64,000 bases of DNA from a virus: positions 62,001-126,000 of the IMG/VR virus record IMGVR_UViG_3300005577_000027; one strand, written 5' to 3'. Every line of letters starts with the position of its first letter. Positions within the stretch are counted from its first letter, which is position 1. Made by a program: the position numbers and the translations under genes. Positions 14,920 to 64,000 of the stretch are shown piece after piece. The notes beneath the pieces are model-generated. The model had not been told where the DNA came from. It saw only the letters and a program-made list of their open reading frames with translations, and ran no database searches.

Positions 14920-15078
14920 TTATTTTTTCATCTGTGACTGCAATAAAACTCTTGATAGTTCTTTTACTGCTAAATAAAGTTCAAATTTATCGGAATTTTC
15001 TGACAAATTATAAATTTTATTATTTATTTTAACAGTAACGGAATCCAATTCAGATCCTAGTTTACTTATTGTAACCAT
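14920..15078 (-). CDS. Small hypothetical protein, 52 aa
   Basis: ATG at 15078, overlapping the end of the 76-aa gene by 17 nt, to TAA at 14920. Starts MVTISKLGSELDSVTVKINN. No family recognised; its support is the tight packing and codon use like neighbours. Confidence 0.5.
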   Translation of the reverse strand: MVTISKLGSELDSVTVKINNKIYNLSENSDKFELYLAVKELSRVLLQSQMKK

Positions 15079-56244: not shown

Positions 56245-56505
56245 TTAATTTATAATTTGAAATATAATCCACTCTTCATCAGCTTTAATATTCGGGTAAC
56301 GTTTATCATACAACCAATATTCTTTATCACCATTCCAATACTCTACAGCCGGACCATCTACTCTATGCAATTCCCCGTTTTGATACCAATGTTTAGTTCC
56401 ATTATTCCATTCTATTGCAGGACCATCTTCTCTATGACGAACATCAGTTTCTTCTTTATACCAGGAAATATGACCTCCAGATATTTTTTTATATATATTA
56501 TCCAT
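56245..56505 (-). CDS. HRxDGPA-repeat protein
   Basis: 86 aa; units HREDGPA and HRVDGPA, EYWLYD and the tail DEEWIIFQIIN. Starts MDNIYKKISGGHISW. Confidence 0.75.
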   Translation of the reverse strand: MDNIYKKISGGHISWYKEETDVRHREDGPAIEWNNGTKHWYQNGELHRVDGPAVEYWNGDKEYWLYDKRYPNIKADEEWIIFQIIN

Positions 56506-56506
56506 A

Positions 56507-56770
56507 TTAATTAATTATCTGAAATATTAACCATTTTTCATCACTATTTATATTTTCATAATATTTATTATTTAACCAATATTCTTTATATTTATCATAA
56601 TATGCTATAGCTGGCCCATCAGTTCTATGAATTTTACCATTTTGATACCAAAATTTAGTTCCATCAGTATATTCTACAGCTGGGCCGTCGTCTCTATGAA
56701 GAATTTCAGTCTCTTTTTTATACTAATGAATGGTTTCATATTTATCCTTTTTTGAAAAAACTTTCGTCAT
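56507..56770 (-). pseudogene. HRxDGPA-repeat gene interrupted by TAG at a conserved Trp
   Basis: From ATG 56770 the frame reads to a TAG where paralogues have the Trp of WYKEGT; beyond it HRDDGPA and HRTDGPA units, EYWLNN and the tail [10 protein letters not shown] are intact. A single TGG to TAG change explains it. Confidence 0.72.
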
Positions 56771-56771
56771 T

Positions 56772-57104
56772 TTAATTAATTATTTGAAATATAATCCATT
56801 CTTCATTAGTTTTTATATTTGGATAACGTTTATTATTTAACCAATATTCTTTTCTTCCGTCTTCATACTCTATAGCTGGACCATCCGTTCGATGAAGCTC
56901 ACCATTTTGGTGCCATTCTTTAGCTCCACTGTCATGTTCTATAGCAGGACCATCTGCTCTATGGCATAATCCATTTTGATACCAACATTTACTTCCATTA
57001 GAATATTCTACAGCTGGACCATTTATTCCATGAAGAATATATGTTCCTTCTTTATACCAACAAATATTTCCATGTTCATCTATTTGAGAATAAACTTTAG
57101 TCAT
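56772..57104 (-). CDS. HRxDGPA-repeat protein
   Basis: 110 aa; units HGINGPA, HRADGPA and HRTDGPA, EYWLNN and tail EEWIIFQIIN. The first unit has drifted. Confidence 0.75.
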   Translation of the reverse strand: MTKVYSQIDEHGNICWYKEGTYILHGINGPAVEYSNGSKCWYQNGLCHRADGPAIEHDSGAKEWHQNGELHRTDGPAIEYEDGRKEYWLNNKRYPNIKTNEEWIIFQIIN

Positions 57105-57105
57105 T

Positions 57106-57339
57106 TTAATTTATTATTTGAAATATTAACCATTCTTCATCATTTTTTATATTTCTATACGCCTTATTATATAACCAATATTCTTTTTCACCATTCCAAT
57201 ATTCTACAGCTGGACCATCTATTCTATGTAATTTTCCGTTTTGATACCAATATTTGGTTCCATGATTCCACTCTATAGCTGGACCATCTTCTCTATGAAG
57301 AATATCTGTACCTTCTTGGTACCAAGCAATATGATTCAT
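57106..57339 (-). CDS. HRxDGPA-repeat protein with frameshifted 5' end
   Basis: 77 aa from an internal ATG. Upstream, a second ATG at about 57366 starts MNNIYKKN in another frame, matching the usual family N-terminus, so one base has been gained or lost between. Units HREDGPA and HRIDGPA and the tail [10 protein letters not shown] are intact; it may still be expressed in shortened form. Confidence 0.62.
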   Translation of the reverse strand: MNHIAWYQEGTDILHREDGPAIEWNHGTKYWYQNGKLHRIDGPAVEYWNGEKEYWLYNKAYRNIKNDEEWLIFQIIN

Positions 57340-57368
57340 ACATATTTTTTTTATATATATTATTCATA

Positions 57369-57629
57369 TTAATTAATTATCTGAAATATTAACCATTCTT
57401 TATCAGTTTTAATATCTGGGTATGATTTATCATTTAACCAATATTCTTTTCCACGCATATATTCTACGGCAGGACCATCAATTCTATGGCGTCTTCCATT
57501 TTGAAACCAAAATTTACTTCCATCAATATATTCTACTGCTGGACCATCATCTTTATGAAGAATATATGTACCTTCTTTGTACCAATAAGTAGTTCCATAT
57601 TCATCTGTTATAAAATATACTTTAATCAT
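57369..57629 (-). CDS. HRxDGPA-repeat protein
   Basis: 86 aa; units HKDDGPA and HRIDGPA, EYWLND and tail [11 protein letters not shown]. It follows a TTAAGAA tandem tract at the end of the FtsK-like gene. Confidence 0.75.
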   Translation of the reverse strand: MIKVYFITDEYGTTYWYKEGTYILHKDDGPAVEYIDGSKFWFQNGRRHRIDGPAVEYMRGKEYWLNDKSYPDIKTDKEWLIFQIIN

Positions 57630-57633
57630 TAAA

Positions 57634-57662
57634 AATTAAGAATTAAGAATTAAGAATTAAGA
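57634..57662. repeat. Seven-base tandem tract (TTAAGAA)4
   Basis: Four copies at the stop codon of the FtsK-like gene. Slippage here would not alter the protein core but could change the stop region. Confidence 0.75.
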
Positions 57663-58643
57663 ACTATATGCTATCTGAAATCGTACATTAGAAAATTGAT
57701 TACAATTCAAAATTGCATCACCTTTACCCATTAAATGTTCAGCTCCACTTTGATCAATAATTACCTTTGAATCAATAACCGAACTAACTTTACAAGCAAC
57801 TCTAGCAGGAAAATTAGCTTTAATTAATCCCGTTAAAACATCAACGCTAGGTCTTTGGGTAGCTAATACCATATGACAACCTACAGCCCTACTCTTCTGA
57901 GAGATTTTAATTAAAAGCTCCTCAAACTGTCCGTTATCATCTTGTAACATTAAATCAGATACTTCATCAATAATTACCATAATTTTAGGCACAACAAAAG
58001 GACTTTCATTTAAACTTTTAATACCTAATATTCTAAATAAATTATATCGTTCTTCAATTTCTTCAGCTAATAATTTCAACATTTTAATAACACCATTATA
58101 ATTATATACAATGGAATTACAATCTCTTACATATTTTCCAAACTCTACTCCATTTTTAGGATCAACCAAATAAAGCATTACATCATTACGCTTTTTAATG
58201 TTTGCAATTAATGTATGAAGAAATACACTTTTACCAGAACCTGTAGTACCAGCAACCAACATATGAGGATTAGTTGCCATATCCAACCATATAGGTTCTC
58301 CAGTAGCCTGCTCTCCCAATAAAAATGTTAATAATCCATCAGGTCTACTATTAATGCTTCGCTCATATAATTCATCAAAATTTATCATATCAGCAGTTCT
58401 GGTAGCTACCTGAAGCCTAACTATTCCACTACCGGAAATAGTAGTAACAATGGGAATTGTCAAACTCCGTAAAGCTAAACCAATTTCACGAGCATTAGCT
58501 TCAATCTTTTTAATAGATTGCCCAGGATCTAGTTCAATATCATATAATTTATAATGACGATGCTCTTTAACATCTTTACAATGTCCGCGAATTTTAAATG
58601 ATTTTAGAATCGAATCAATCACATTTTTATCATAAGTATTCAT
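57657..58643 (-). CDS. FtsK/SpoIIIE-like DNA translocase
   Basis: 328 aa: beta-domain-like N-terminal part (~1-100), then the RecA-fold motor with Walker A GTTGSGKS at 132-139, Walker B MVIIDEVSDLM near 222 and LATQRPSVDVLTG near 258, the FtsK signature. The membrane domain and DNA-recognition gamma domain are absent. It would pump double-stranded DNA, perhaps for genome segregation, conjugation-like transfer or packaging. The promoter at 58629-58657 overlaps the annotated ATG, so the real start may be GTG at 58622. Confidence 0.87.
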   Translation of the reverse strand: MNTYDKNVIDSILKSFKIRGHCKDVKEHRHYKLYDIELDPGQSIKKIEANAREIGLALRSLTIPIVTTISGSGIVRLQVATRTADMINFDELYERSINSRPDGLLTFLLGEQATGEPIWLDMATNPHMLVAGTTGSGKSVFLHTLIANIKKRNDVMLYLVDPKNGVEFGKYVRDCNSIVYNYNGVIKMLKLLAEEIEERYNLFRILGIKSLNESPFVVPKIMVIIDEVSDLMLQDDNGQFEELLIKISQKSRAVGCHMVLATQRPSVDVLTGLIKANFPARVACKVSSVIDSKVIIDQSGAEHLMGKGDAILNCNQFSNVRFQIAYSS

Positions 58644-58657
58644 AATTAAAATGTCAA
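58629..58657 (-). promoter_or_regulatory. Sigma-70-type promoter overlapping the start of the FtsK-like gene
   Basis: TTGACA, 17 bp, TATGAT on the minus strand. Seven bases downstream of the -10 box is an in-frame GTG (58622), suggesting a leaderless start there. Confidence 0.7.
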
Positions 58658-58708
58658 CTTTGTGAAATAATTAAATATTCTCACATTTAAATTAAAGTAA
58701 TACTGTAA

Positions 58709-59635
58709 TTATATATTTATATTCATTAATTGTGTTCCTAATTTTTTGAGAAAATTAGAACCGTATGTATTATTTTCTAAATCATTTTCCATAAATTGCG
58801 GTAATATTTCATCTTGATACCTAGAAGAAGCAATTCCCCAAGCTATAGAAGCTACTGAATCTGTATCTCCTCCCCAATTAATAATTCTTTTCATCATGCC
58901 TATTAAGCTATTTTCTTCAATTAATAAAGTATTGACAGCATGAGCAGTATTTATTCCTATTCCTAAATTTTTTGGATCATTTTTATTTTTATGAACAATT
59001 CCATTCCAAGGCAATAAAAAATTATATTTAAATAAATTCCAATCAATAAATAATTTATAATCACTTATCCATTCATTTAAATATTTAAAAGAATCATTTT
59101 TATATAAAGAAAAGTGGCTCATTAATCCGACTAATATGGATGATTGAATCGCATTATTTGTATTATGAGTTGTAGCCGCTTGAATTTTAGCTATATTAAT
59201 TATATCTAATGGATTTTTAATAATCCCTAATGGCACAGATCTCATAGCGGCTCCATTACTATTTGAATCTGTATTAATTAATTTCTTTAATTCATTTACC
59301 GAATTAGCTTTTTCCAGAATGCTTTGAAAATTTCTAGAATACCCATCTCTTTCGTCTCGTTTAAAACAAGATAAAAATGAATACAAAAAATCATCAGAAT
59401 TAACGTTTGTTCCTTTATTTATTAAAACTTCAGAAATTGCTATAGATTGCTGAGTATCATCTGTATAATAACCAGGAAGTAATTTATTATACTTAGGATG
59501 TTGTAAATATGACTTAAAATTTAATGCTTCAATAAACAAATCTTGATATTTTAATTGATCAATATATTCTACACAAATAGCATATGCATCAGCTTGAGCA
59601 ATTCGTAAAAGAATATTATTGTTTTTATTTATCAT
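58709..59635 (-). CDS. ADP-ribosylglycohydrolase (DraG-like)
   Basis: 308 aa. YYTDDTQQSIAI near residue 58 is the TDDT metal motif, GAAMRSVPLG near 128 and WGGDTDSVASIAWG near 258 (GGDTD) complete the site. Such enzymes remove ADP-ribose from Arg, Asn or nucleic acids. In a phage it could reverse host or phage-encoded ADP-ribosylation, for instance in defence. Its stop overlaps the start of nothing; its start overlaps the stop of the Rrf2-like gene. Confidence 0.86.
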   Translation of the reverse strand: MINKNNNILLRIAQADAYAICVEYIDQLKYQDLFIEALNFKSYLQHPKYNKLLPGYYTDDTQQSIAISEVLINKGTNVNSDDFLYSFLSCFKRDERDGYSRNFQSILEKANSVNELKKLINTDSNSNGAAMRSVPLGIIKNPLDIINIAKIQAATTHNTNNAIQSSILVGLMSHFSLYKNDSFKYLNEWISDYKLFIDWNLFKYNFLLPWNGIVHKNKNDPKNLGIGINTAHAVNTLLIEENSLIGMMKRIINWGGDTDSVASIAWGIASSRYQDEILPQFMENDLENNTYGSNFLKKLGTQLMNINI

Positions 59636-60201
59636 TTAAGAGTATATCCGCCATTTCTTCCACGAATTCCAATCAATTCATTATGAAGCACGGCGTCATT
59701 TAATTGAACTTTAATATATTTTGTAAATTTACTTATTTCATTATAATTAATTATTAGATCTTTTAAAGCTATATTTGTAATTTGTGTTACACTTATAATA
59801 TAACTTTTATTATAATTAAGTTTATTGTGTTTTAAAAATTTAATAATATAGTCAACTATAGTTACACATTTAGTTGAAATTAGAAAATTATAATTAATAT
59901 GTTTAAATGATAAATATCTATAATTTTCATTATATGAATCTTCTTCATTATATGAATCTTCTTCATTATATAAATCTTCTTCATTTACATTTTTTGATGA
60001 ATTTTTTTTATTATTTGAATTTGATTCCTTGGGTTTAAAATCGTTTGAATTAATAATTGTATTTTTAATAGATGAAAGTAAATTATGATGTTTAATCATT
60101 TTTACAAATAAAACTGAAGCGTTTCTTACTTCATTTATATCAGAATTATTTATTGCTAAATTAAATAATGCTTCTAATCTTGAAAATTCTTTATCATTCA
60201 T
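59632..60201 (-). CDS. Rrf2-like winged-helix protein
   Basis: 189 aa. The C-terminal ~90 residues look like Rrf2 (CVTIVDYIIKFLKHNK, ISVTQITNIALKDL and the wing LIGIRGRNGGYTLK). The middle has an 18-bp DNA tandem repeat encoding EEDSYN three times. No Cys cluster for FeS. Probably a DNA-binding regulator. It is coupled to the ADP-ribosylglycohydrolase gene and has a consensus promoter. Confidence 0.66.
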   Translation of the reverse strand: MNDKEFSRLEALFNLAINNSDINEVRNASVLFVKMIKHHNLLSSIKNTIINSNDFKPKESNSNNKKNSSKNVNEEDLYNEEDSYNEEDSYNENYRYLSFKHINYNFLISTKCVTIVDYIIKFLKHNKLNYNKSYIISVTQITNIALKDLIINYNEISKFTKYIKVQLNDAVLHNELIGIRGRNGGYTLK

Positions 60202-60210
60202 AATGAATTT

Positions 60211-60239
60211 ATTATAAATTAATAATATTTAATTGTCAA
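60211..60239 (-). promoter_or_regulatory. Consensus sigma-70 promoter
   Basis: TTGACA, 17 bp, TATAAT on the minus strand. The ATG at 60201 follows nine bases below the -10 box, so the leader is absent or about three bases. Confidence 0.78.
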
Positions 60240-60254
60240 CTCTTAGCGATTTTT

Positions 60255-60587
60255 TTAATTCACTATTTGAAATATTAACCATTCTTCATCAGTTTGAATA
60301 TCTGGATAATCTTTTCCATTTAAAAAATAACTTTTATATTCATTTGGGGATTCCATTGCTGGACCATCAACTCTATGGCATAATCCATTTTGATACCAAC
60401 ATTTATCACCATTAGAAAATTCTATTGCTGGACCATTTTTTCTATGAAGCAATCCATATTGATACCAATATTTATTACCATTAAAATATTCTACAGCAGC
60501 GCCATCTTCTCTATGAAGAATAGTTGTACCTTCTTTATACCAAAAAATATTTCCGTATTTATCTGTTTTTGAATAAACTTTTGTCAT
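60255..60587 (-). CDS. HRxDGPA-repeat protein
   Basis: 110 aa; units HREDGAA, HRKNGPA and HRVDGPA, SYFLNG and tail EEWLIFQIVN. Confidence 0.75.
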   Translation of the reverse strand: MTKVYSKTDKYGNIFWYKEGTTILHREDGAAVEYFNGNKYWYQYGLLHRKNGPAIEFSNGDKCWYQNGLCHRVDGPAMESPNEYKSYFLNGKDYPDIQTDEEWLIFQIVN

Positions 60588-60588
60588 A

Positions 60589-60918
60589 TTAATTTAATAT
60601 TTGAAATATAATCCACTCTTCGTCAGAGTGAATATTTGAATATTCATTTCCATACAACCAATATTGCTTATAACTATTCTTCATTTCTAAAGCTGGACCA
60701 TCTGTCCTATGAAACTGTCCATTAATAACCCACCATCTACTTCCATTAGGATATTCTATTGCTGGACCATCTACTCTGTGAATTTTCCCATTTTGGTACC
60801 ATCGCTTTTCTCCATCAGCATATTCTACAGCCGGACCATCTTCTCTATGTAAAATATCTGTACCTTCTTTATACCAATAAATATTACAATACTCTATTTT
60901 TGAATATATTTTTGTCAT
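60589..60918 (-). CDS. HRxDGPA-repeat protein
   Basis: 109 aa from ATG 60918, which overlaps the stop of the next copy; a longer frame to 60945 is less likely. Units HREDGPA, HRVDGPA and HRTDGPA, then QYWLYG and the tail EEWIIFQILN. Confidence 0.74.
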   Translation of the reverse strand: MTKIYSKIEYCNIYWYKEGTDILHREDGPAVEYADGEKRWYQNGKIHRVDGPAIEYPNGSRWWVINGQFHRTDGPALEMKNSYKQYWLYGNEYSNIHSDEEWIIFQILN

Positions 60919-61190
60919 TAATTTAATATTTGGAATATAACCCATTCTTCATCAGTTTTAATATCTGGATAATGTTTCCCATATAAATAATATGCTTTAC
61001 GACCATCAATGCATTCTATAGCAGGACCATCTGTTCTGTGGCGTCTTCCATTTTGATACCACCATTTTGTTCCATCATACCATTCTATTGCCGGACCATC
61101 TTCTCTATGGTAGATCAAATATCCTTCATTATCATTTTCTTTATACCATTCAATGCGATTTTCAAATTCTTTGCTGTATATTTTAATCAT
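60918..61190 (-). CDS. HRxDGPA-repeat protein
   Basis: 90 aa; units HREDGPA and HRTDGPA, AYYLYG and the tail EEWVIFQILN. N-terminus MIKIYSKEFENRIEWYKEND is a little longer than usual. Confidence 0.74.
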   Translation of the reverse strand: MIKIYSKEFENRIEWYKENDNEGYLIYHREDGPAIEWYDGTKWWYQNGRRHRTDGPAIECIDGRKAYYLYGKHYPDIKTDEEWVIFQILN

Positions 61191-61193
61191 TTT

Positions 61194-61430
61194 TCAATTA
61201 ATTATTTGAAATATTAACCACTCTTCATCATTTTTTATATCTGAATAATGAATATTGTTTAACCAATATTCGTTTTTATAAAAAAATCTTTCATCATGAT
61301 ATTTTATCGCCGGGCCACTTACATTATGTAAACCACAATATGTAGAATAATAAGCAGTAAAAATACCACAATCACTTGTATAATAATTTCTATTATAATT
61401 ATTCGGTTTCATTTTGATTTTATATTTCAT
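61194..61430 (-). CDS. Diverged HRxDGPA-family protein
   Basis: 78 aa. Only one weak unit remains (HNVSGPA), but the end EYWLNNIHYSDIK and the tail [11 protein letters not shown] are fully conserved, showing that the tail outlasts the repeats. Confidence 0.68.
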   Translation of the reverse strand: MKYKIKMKPNNYNRNYYTSDCGIFTAYYSTYCGLHNVSGPAIKYHDERFFYKNEYWLNNIHYSDIKNDEEWLIFQIIN

Positions 61431-61661: not shown

Positions 61662-61810
61662 TTATTTATACCTATTTCACAATACCAACAATAAGCTCGA
61701 GTAGTTTTACATCCACAATTTTTACATCTTCCACGTAGCTTAGTTCGTATATTTAAATATATAAAAATAAGTAATATTAAAACTATAAGTATAACAATAA
61801 ATTTTTCCAT
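61658..61810 (-). CDS. Small membrane zinc-ribbon protein, 50 aa
   Basis: ATG 61810 overlaps the tilS stop; one transmembrane helix (residues 4-20), then CKNCGC...CWYC, a four-Cys site. TGA at 61658. Confidence 0.55.
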   Translation of the reverse strand: MEKFIVILIVLILLIFIYLNIRTKLRGRCKNCGCKTTRAYCWYCEIGINK

Positions 61811-62502
61811 TATAAATTATTTAATTGATTTCCAATTTGTAATTCTTGTGAAATTTCTACCAGTCTATTTTTAATTTGAGGATTAATACTTTCTAATAAA
61901 GGTAGAATTTCTTTTCTAACTTTAACTCTTAAATAATCCATATTCTCATTTGACGGATCATTTGCATATAAAATATTCCACCGCTTTAAATGTGCTAAAA
62001 TTCTGTTTTTAGGTACAGAGAGTAATGGCCTGAAAATTCCAATACCATTATTAGACACTTCTGGCAAAACATTTAATGAGCCAATATTTTTACCACGCAA
62101 AAGTCTGATCATAACAGTCTCTGCATAATCGTCAAAATGATGTGCAGTTACTATTACATTGCCATATTCAAACAATGCATCATATCTTGCTTTCCTTGCA
62201 TGTGATTGTATTCCTTCCGGACCATCAATCACTTTTACCACCTTGCGATAAAAAGGAACATTGATTTTTAAAGCAAGATTTTCTGCTAAATCAAGTTCTG
62301 AATTAGCTTCATTTCTTAGACCATGATTGATTCCTACTGCAATACAATCATGACCCAATTCTCTTGCTACTCGAGGAAAAGATACAAGCAAACATTGTGA
62401 ATCAGAACCACCAGATACTCCTAAAGTAAATTTAGTAGGAGTTTTATAGTTTCGATTAATTGATTCAGTTAATGCTTTGTGAATATTTCGTTCGAGTTTC
62501 AT
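61810..62502 (-). CDS. tilS: tRNA(Ile)-lysidine synthetase, catalytic domain only
   Basis: 230 aa. PP-loop SGGSDS at 30-35, INHGLR near 69, ARKARYDAL near 106 and TAHHFDDYAETVMIRLLRG near 120 are the TilS N-terminal motifs. TilS changes C34 of tRNA-Ile(CAU) to lysidine so that it reads AUA and takes isoleucine. E. coli TilS has ~430 aa; only the catalytic and short linker parts remain here, as in some compact bacterial enzymes. A CAU tRNA gene lies 68 bp upstream and on the same strand. Confidence 0.9.
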   Translation of the reverse strand: MKLERNIHKALTESINRNYKTPTKFTLGVSGGSDSQCLLVSFPRVARELGHDCIAVGINHGLRNEANSELDLAENLALKINVPFYRKVVKVIDGPEGIQSHARKARYDALFEYGNVIVTAHHFDDYAETVMIRLLRGKNIGSLNVLPEVSNNGIGIFRPLLSVPKNRILAHLKRWNILYANDPSNENMDYLRVKVRKEILPLLESINPQIKNRLVEISQELQIGNQLNNL

Positions 62503-62509
62503 TTTTTAT

Positions 62510-62538
62510 CTAACTCTTATATCGGTTAGCTGATATTA
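62510..62538 (+). repeat. Isolated copy of the two-helix repeat, between tilS and the tRNA
   Basis: CTAAC-TCTT-ATATC-GGTTAGCT-GATAT. It has the same two interleaved helices as the array at 63.6 kb with ATATC/GAT AT as a variant pair. Strand is given as in the array. It lies 8 bp upstream of the tilS ATG. Confidence 0.75.
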
Positions 62539-62569
62539 ATATTTTGCTCCAATTTCATTTTATTAAAAA

Positions 62570-62647
62570 TGGTGGGCCGTGTAGGACTTGAACCTACAGC
62601 CTCAAAATTATGAGTTTTTTGCTCTAGACCTATTGAGCTAACGGCCC
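62570..62647 (-). tRNA. tRNA with CAU anticodon, probably tRNA-Ile2
   Basis: 78 nt including encoded CCA. Acceptor GGGCCGT/ACGGCCC, D-arm GCTC/GAGC, anticodon loop CTCATAA (CAU), variable loop of 5, T-arm GTAGG-TTCAAGT-CCTAC, A73, CCA, then TTTTT. A CAU tRNA can be Met or, with TilS, Ile2 for AUA. C4-G69 and C5-G68 are present, which I recall as TilS determinants, and tilS is the next gene. The anticodon stem is A/T-only with one A-G mismatch. Confidence 0.88.
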
Positions 62648-62765: not shown

Positions 62766-63470
62766 ATGAACTTATGTGTAATATGTAATACTGAAATTGA
62801 AAATTGTCAATCAAAATTTTGTTCACAAACTTGTAAAACAAAATATTTTAATTCAAAAAATAATAATTATTCTATACAAAAAGACCGCGGAATCAATAGA
62901 AAACTATACTTTATAAATAAAAAGGGAGGATGTTGTGAAATTTGCGGGTATAAACAAAACATGGCTGGATTAGTTTTTCATCATATAGACCCTAGTAAAA
63001 AAAAATTTAATGTTGATGGAAGGTCCCTAGGAAATAGATCTTTAAAAGAATTAACACTTGAGGTGGAAAAATGCCAATTATTATGTCATCTATGTCATAC
63101 TCATCATCATAATCCACATTTAGACATGAGTAATTTCGATGAACATATTATTAATATTGAATTAAAAAGTCACATATGTAAAGAATTAATCAATAAAACT
63201 GAAGAAGAAATTAATAAAATTATTGAAAGTATAAATAATACTAATTTAAATAAAACAGCTTTATGGTTAGAAGTATCTTCTACTGCATTATCTAATTTTT
63301 TAGATAGAGAAAATTTACGTGATAGAATCAAATTTTTCCGTCAAACTAAAATTCAATGGCCTTCAAATGAAGAATTATTGAAAATGCTTTCAGAATCTAA
63401 TTACTCAGCAGTTGGACGAAAATTAGGTGTAAGTGATAATGCTATTCGCAAACATTTAAAATCCAAGTAA
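62766..63470 (+). CDS. HNH homing endonuclease with C-terminal HTH
   Basis: 234 aa, plus strand, with GAGAGGAATGGT before the ATG. N-terminal zinc finger CVIC...CSQTC (4-25), HNH core CCEICGYKQN, LVFHHIDPSKKKF near 75 and LLCHLCHTHHHNPH near 108, then a helix-turn-helix at the end (EELLKMLSESNYSAVGRKLG). This layout is typical of free-standing homing nucleases in phages, which often sit beside tRNA genes. Confidence 0.85.
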   Translation: MNLCVICNTEIENCQSKFCSQTCKTKYFNSKNNNYSIQKDRGINRKLYFINKKGGCCEICGYKQNMAGLVFHHIDPSKKKFNVDGRSLGNRSLKELTLEVEKCQLLCHLCHTHHHNPHLDMSNFDEHIINIELKSHICKELINKTEEEINKIIESINNTNLNKTALWLEVSSTALSNFLDRENLRDRIKFFRQTKIQWPSNEELLKMLSESNYSAVGRKLGVSDNAIRKHLKSK

Positions 63471-63626
63471 ACTTTAATTTTAAGGTATAATTAAGTTATT
63501 ATTACAATATCTGCTTTAAATATTATTACGGTTACCTGATATTTACAATCCGTAATCTTCGTACTGTATTTAATTACATTGTCAAGCGGCTTATTATTTA
63601 ATAAACAGCATAGTGCAGAAACTGGT
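63471..63626. other. Gene-free stretch between HNH gene and array
   Basis: Contains a 7-bp stem ATTACGG/CCGTAAT around 18 nt (63525-63556), whose loop includes CGGTTACCTGATATT, a near match to the right half of the repeat (GGTTAGCTGATATT), i.e. a degenerate copy. A TTGACA box on the minus strand (63580) has only a poor -10. Confidence 0.5.
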
Positions 63627-64000
63627 CTAATTCTTTTTAGCGATTAGCTGCTATTATTTGCTTGATCTTTCAAATATCATCATGATACCGCCGTTGTAGT
63701 CTAACATTTATAGTAGTTAGCAACTATTACTTAATATCTTGTTTCAGTGCGATTGAACTTCTTACTGTCGTTAATTCTTATATTAGTTAGCTGATATTGT
63801 TTGTTGAAGCCAAATTTAATCATGTCGACGAGAAACGTGTCTAACTCTTATAGAGGTTAGCTTCTATTGATGCTGTTGAAAGTGGCACTCGATCCCACCA
63901 TTTAGTCTCGGGCCTAACTCTTATAGAGGTTAGTTTCTATTGCTAATATGGTGACGATGATGTCTAGTACGTGGACTATTATTTGCCTAACTCTCATAGA
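63627..64000 (+). repeat. Tandem array of ~29-nt two-helix repeats with ~41-45-nt unique spacers, 70-74-nt period
   Basis: Copies start at 63627, 63701, 63771, 63841, 63914 and 63987 (last one cut). Each has CTAAY, 4-5 nt, a variable 4-5-nt arm, RTTAG inside an 8-nt loop, then the complement of the variable arm. Helix 1 pairs CTAAC with GTTAG (CTAAT with ATTAG in copy 1); helix 2 pairs TAGC/GCTA, ATAGT/ACTAT, ATATT/GATAT (U-G) or ATAGA/TCTAT. The helices interleave, so either a pseudoknot or two alternative hairpins. Spacers share no sequence and look richer in G+C than the surroundings. Strand is arbitrary. Confidence 0.8.

Follow-up and report, generated by a model that had tools for sequence, protein, structure and literature searches.

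Covarying repeats at the cas-distal end of a probable type V-M (Cas12m) CRISPR array in a tailed phage

The repeat array and its genomic setting

The window analysed here, 64,000 nt in length, corresponds to positions 62001-126000 of a 131,451-base virus record (G000), whose portal, large terminase, DNA polymerase and rIIA proteins identify its source as a tailed phage. A search for kin by terminase returned just two fragments of ~6 kb, and one for relatives of the tilS-like gene returned none. At the window's end (63625-64000) lie six copies of a repeat, one cut by the edge, spaced by 73, 73, 70, 70 and 73 nt. Both this count and the predicted continuation past the edge, made in an initial annotation of the window, were confirmed: the whole array spans 1.3 kb, mostly past the edge, and comprises 19 repeats and 18 spacers. 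Its far end is at window-equivalent 64960 (G000:126960; position 14960 of the fetched flank L009, to whose coordinates 50,000 is added to give window positions). In the 19.5-kb flank, a 22-nt repeat core, allowing up to three mismatches, had 16 matches on a single strand and none on the opposite strand; 20 shuffles gave none. Queried directly with the repeat, viral and bacterial genome collections yielded no match.

Read on the minus strand, the array consists of 36-nt repeats and spacers of ~36 nt (range 22-50 nt). Numbering the units 1-19 from the cas gene described below, the window holds the cas-distal units 14-19, and units 1-13 lie outside it on the same strand of the same record. The 36-nt repeats in the window occupy 63912-63947, 63839-63874, 63769-63804, 63699-63734 and 63625-63661, unit 14 being edge-cut, and spacers 14-18 (34-37 nt) occupy 63948-63984, 63875-63911, 63805-63838, 63735-63768 and 63662-63698. 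The cas-proximal units 1-3 have identical repeats and 36-nt spacers; the remaining units differ, so identity is limited to these three. Near-identical repeats are a hallmark of CRISPR arrays in general rather than of any subtype, and the oldest repeats of such arrays usually decay. The repeats had been judged too variable for CRISPR because only the worn distal end was in view, a judgement overturned by the identical cas-proximal repeats and the adjoining Cas12m-family gene.

Other identities for the array were rejected. The units are not tRNA genes, since a tRNA covariance/ARAGORN search gave one tRNA only, outside the array, and no Rfam family matches it. A type III antitoxin, already discounted in the initial annotation, would be expected to show tandem near-identical pseudoknots, no unique spacers and a ToxN-like toxin; here, unique 22-50-nt spacers are found, with Cas12m, HNH and GIY-YIG-like genes as neighbours. 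TIGR arrays also encode guides in phages and combine compact, variable repeats with short spacers (PMC12045711), but both the Nop-domain Tas protein and the dual, alternating 8-12-nt repeats with ~9-nt spacers are absent. A new non-CRISPR structured RNA array of either type, TIGR-like guides or antitoxin, is contradicted by the adjacent Cas12m gene, the family-wide layout and the canonical 36+36 form of the newest units, and can be regarded as extremely improbable.

Immediately outside the cas-distal end, window positions 63500-63556 carry two inverted repeats of 7 nt that interleave (ATTACGG/CCGTAAT and TAAATAT/ATATTTA), whose similarity to the array repeat is at chance level (score 7.8). An HNH endonuclease-like gene lies at the same end (62766-63470) on the plus strand, where genes are rare, and a GIY-YIG-like (T5orf172/MUG113) gene lies beside the effector (L009 17223-17777, minus strand); both are possible homing endonucleases. 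The minus strand also encodes at least nine paralogous small proteins (window 56245-61430; L009 18336-19406) with the repeated motif HREDGPAIEW..G...WYQNG..HR.DGPA, and three adjacent phage genes (43113-46538) that by eye are ABC transporter-like (ATPase, permease and substrate-binding protein).

The adjoining effector gene and its relatives

Approximately 116 nt beyond the last array repeat, and 1.1 kb beyond the window edge, is an intact reading frame of 698 codons (G000:127076-129172, minus strand). PADLOC profiles matched its product as Cas12f (1.5e-67) and Cas12u1 (2e-66), the latter being an older name for V-M/V-U1. Against the PDB, Cas12m was matched at 3e-31 with the single sequence, and at 7e-138, 6e-75 and 5e-73 with a family profile. 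The closest fold to an AlphaFold model of the protein (pLDDT 76) was Cas12m2 (8hhl, E 3e-22), and the four best fold matches were all Cas12m2 or Cas12m RNP structures, with Cas12f, TnpB and CasPhi far behind; Pfam and NCBIfam gave weak TnpB/Cas12f traces and nothing else. On the basis of the PADLOC, PDB and fold matches the product is assigned to the Cas12m family (type V-M), with the caveats that similarity to the effector of virus Rctr197k is low (26-32% identity, alignment-dependent) and that the model has a pTM of 0.54. Effector gene and array run head to tail, with a promoter-like TTGACG-17-TATAAT (G000:127041-127069, minus strand) between them outside the window; as AT-rich DNA often yields such matches, this motif is support rather than proof.

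The RuvC triad of the effector is N372-E574-N663. Asparagine thus replaces the catalytic aspartate at two of the three positions, and the protein is probably a nuclease-dead, RNA-guided DNA-binding effector. Among aligned relatives the N-E-N triad is unique, the truncated effectors of contigs L023 and L024 apart. Cas12m orthologues with D-E-D, H-D-D or N-D-D triads bind PAM-adjacent DNA and, without cutting it, inhibit transcription or phage growth (PMC11013384). Given the two asparagines, silencing of other DNA without cutting appears the most likely mode of action here.

No relative of the effector was found by a single-sequence search of viral contigs, a two-sequence alignment being required. 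Alignment-led searches then identified related effectors in 13, 8 and 26 viral loci (with some overlap between the sets) and in 13 bacterial or plasmid loci. In at least 14 distinct viral Cas12m relatives, an array lies immediately 3′ of the effector; in most viral loci with enough downstream sequence it begins no more than a few hundred bases after the effector stop, on the same strand. The layout, for which no family had been known to the first annotator, is therefore one that Cas12m relatives share. In Rctr197k (KX853510), the array starts within about 35 nt of the Cas12m-family gene and also decays cas-distally; its effector has a D-E-D triad, unlike that described here, and was deposited as ‘similar to transposase’ beside an annotated ‘CRISPR’ with no subtype. 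Simple scans near most of the bacterial and plasmid relatives found no array, the contigs being short or the arrays placed elsewhere.

The relatives provided several further observations. In L053 (4502-4783) and L057 (4769-4960), the same handle also makes up a second, small array on the upstream side of the effector, and Rctr197k has a second annotated CRISPR array (L014 214-468) with the unrelated repeat GTTGCCGGCTCACCCGCTTCAGCGTTCGATCGCGG. The near-identical effectors of L023 and L024 (4965-6677 in each) look to have lost the zinc ribbon and the third RuvC motif. Despite the truncated effector, the L023 array is almost perfectly uniform, and its spacers differ from those of L024, which looks like recent spacer turnover beside a truncated effector.

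Strand and pseudoknot fold of the repeat

The initial annotation read the repeats on the plus strand, where the last loop has 2 nt across a 5-bp helix and appeared suspiciously short. Because the Cas12m effector adjoins on the minus strand, the array is read on that strand, and the plus strand is the non-transcribed one. The unit becomes GTTGGCA-ATAGA-AG-CTAAC-C-TCTAT-AAGC-GTTAG-AC followed by the spacer, with loops of 2, 1 and 4 nt suitable for an H-type pseudoknot, and the short loop becomes the first loop, for which 2 nt is normal in a Cas12m crRNA handle. The handle has the layout S1, 2 nt, S2, 0-1 nt, S1′, 4-8 nt, S2′, AC. In the Cas12m2 crRNA, C(-22)..C(-17) pair with G(-8)..G(-3), G(-23) lies opposite A(-2) and the repeat ends with C(-1) (PMC10442227). 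At the same places the array repeat shows a G facing an A and an A-C terminus (3′ end GTTAG-A-C), giving a ~36-nt repeat with the Cas12m pseudoknot and a 3′ A-C. Pseudoknot-free folding produced weak, inconsistent hairpins, as expected since the handle needs a pseudoknot or protein.

Compensatory change had been claimed for both helices. Within the array this holds for the first (45 of 50 cells Watson-Crick against a permutation mean of 38.0, P=0.001) and is suggestive only for the second (P=0.07). One of the listed arm pair sets, in the unit at 63769-63804, is not fully paired (G-U on the plus strand, A-C on the minus). Wobble pairs within this array alone lean toward the plus strand and count against the minus-strand reading, with five A-C cells versus one G-U cell on the minus strand, three of them from one decayed unit. 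Both helices and the strand are best supported by agreement across the family: when 17 loci were each represented by one repeat, these repeats, dissimilar in sequence, fitted one pseudoknot on the effector strand in 17 of 17 cases, compared with 1.2% of shuffles and one of 17 on the other strand even with 12 registers allowed. The earlier suggestion of an H-type pseudoknot under structural selection thus stands.

These results also bear on the idea that the locus is a dead remnant, in which an effector without catalytic residues sits beside repeats decaying unselected. The rare N-E-N triad, the worn last units and the absence of protospacers among phages and plasmids would all fit such a history. 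The first helix, however, has fewer mismatches than free decay predicts, the 698-codon frame is intact and the three newest units have identical repeats and 36-nt spacers, while many Cas12m proteins lack the canonical triad and those tested act by binding (PMC11013384). We therefore consider a remnant unlikely and favour a working type V-M system.

A single stray repeat, the sole copy outside the array, was detected at 62508-62545 (minus strand; ATATC-AG-CTAAC-C-GATAT-AAGA-GTTAG-AT) with a score of 33.2, against at most 9.1 in shuffles. Both helices are intact, one with the compensatory variant ATATC/GATAT. It ends 5 nt upstream of the start codon of the tilS-like gene (tRNA-Ile lysidine synthetase; 61810-62502, minus strand; an ORF with its motif read by eye), so that its ‘guide’ would be the start of tilS, and it may overlap the ribosome-binding region. 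Upstream of it is a tRNA with a CAT anticodon (62570-62647, minus strand), by eye tRNA-Ile(CAU), found by tRNA search and resembling tRNA-Ile2, the substrate of TilS. As a lead only, the stray handle may let the effector bind or trim tilS mRNA; TnpB, a relative, is reported to process its own mRNA (PMC10278001).

Repeat divergence, guide content and proposed role

Repeats in the window array become more divergent the farther they lie from the cas gene (rho -0.57, P 0.014), and the same gradient is seen in Rctr197k (rho -0.71), L048 (rho -0.61, P 8e-5), L018 and L019. The window array shows no unit shortening (mean 72 nt throughout), its wear being confined to the repeats. In L048 (36 units) and L053, units start at 72-76 nt and drift to about 50 nt, and L026 and L017 have short units throughout. 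L017 comprises 28 units, nearly all different, with repeats of 27-29 nt and spacers of 16-31 nt; Watson-Crick pairing is seen in 107 of 132 arm cells, whereas permutation predicts 70 and never reached the observed value in 10,000 (P<1e-4). By our own count the effector strand of L017 has 21 G-U and 4 A-C cells, a bias that once more settles which strand is read. Among relatives, then, repeats shrink to 27-29 nt and spacers to ~19 nt. In the mature Cas12m crRNA the 5′ end of the repeat is disordered and spacer beyond about 17-20 nt is dispensable (PMC10442227); by this comparison, what disappears with age is not required in the mature crRNA.

The spacers have 46.8% G+C compared with 28.2% for the phage (0 of 20,000 draws), in agreement with the foreign look attributed to them initially, and their composition points to foreign sources. 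The suggested matching of spacers gave no protospacer in the phage's own genome and none beyond chance among phage and plasmid sequences; array spacers of L048 and Rctr197k against phages, and spacers against the fetched loci, likewise gave nothing beyond chance. Spacers 9 and 15 (L009 14308-14347 and 13875-13911, minus strand) share an identical 12-nt core and also resemble each other on either side of it, as though acquired from allelic forms of a single target. No Cas1, Cas2 or Cas4 was found in the 131-kb record, which may be a fragment.

Phage-encoded solitary repeats are known to act as anti-CRISPR RNAs (Racrs, PMC10651486), and with an effector predicted to have no cleavage site the array might be viewed as a decoy whose repeat RNAs occupy a host type V effector. 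This is very unlikely: the phage's own effector adjoins the array, the spacers stay guide-length with a composition unlike phage DNA, and the repeat pattern has no match in the bacterial genome collection.

Overall, the repeats are very probably the cas-distal, old end of a phage type V-M CRISPR-Cas locus that is transcribed on the minus strand and would guide a putatively non-cutting Cas12m. Transcription would start at the promoter just after the cas12m-like gene, and each repeat would form an H-type pseudoknot handle, to be bound and trimmed by the effector so that handle and guide remain. The resulting RNP would bind matching DNA of competing mobile elements or the host and block transcription or replication without cutting. 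New units would enter at the cas-proximal end through Cas1-Cas2 supplied in trans, and in units long in use the parts unneeded in the mature crRNA would erode while compensatory changes hold the helices.

Phage and prophage V-M systems are already known, a role in conflicts between mobile elements has been proposed for V-M systems (PMC11656645; PMC13232261), and Rctr197k is already in GenBank. Like MmCas12m2 and GoCas12m (type V-M, formerly V-U1), the present system has a single effector, no known tracrRNA, a 36-nt repeat, a pseudoknot handle ending in the S2′ helix and A-C, and a RuvC triad predicted to be unfit for cleavage. It differs in being carried by a tailed phage, in effector size (698 versus ~600 aa), in its N-E-N triad, and in the divergence of repeats within one array and their shrinkage, with that of spacers, in relatives. 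CasPhi/Cas12j, CasLambda/Cas12l and a landfill viral Cas12m (PMC12607003) are also compact phage Cas12 proteins with their own arrays and no spacer-acquisition genes, although CasPhi is a far weaker fold match (E 9e-5 versus 3e-22); for these systems we found no report of covarying repeats. What is new here is compensatory repeat divergence inside one array and spacer shrinkage to ~19 nt in relatives. No description of covarying, eroding arrays was found in the open-access literature, to which our search was confined, and only the work on CreTA is comparable. There, diverged repeats resist recombination and still function (PMC9458426), but that work concerns single or paired ectopic repeats used by a type I (Cascade) effector rather than a whole array.

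Resistance to recombination is a likely benefit of diverged repeats for the present array as well. We lean, by a narrow margin over even chances, toward viewing phage type V-M arrays as locked guide libraries, in which aging units shed the repeat's dispensable 5′ end together with the spacer's 3′ half, and compensatory handle drift blocks the deletion of guides by recombination. L017, with its 28 nearly all different guides of ready length, would be the far end of this process, and the handle in the tilS leader a side branch through which the effector could act on mRNA.

Standard CRISPR finders depend on repeat identity. If this reading is true, arrays like that of L017 probably go uncalled by them; arrays recognisable by fold only are likely missed, and the pseudoknot descriptor used here would detect them. 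The progression from fresh 36+36 units to units of ~48 nt looks like continued selection on old phage guides, and reveals which bases of the Cas12m crRNA evolution retains. Such arrays may offer natural, recombination-resistant multi-guide formats for a probably non-cutting DNA-binding effector, and they make the question of what phage V-M systems target testable.
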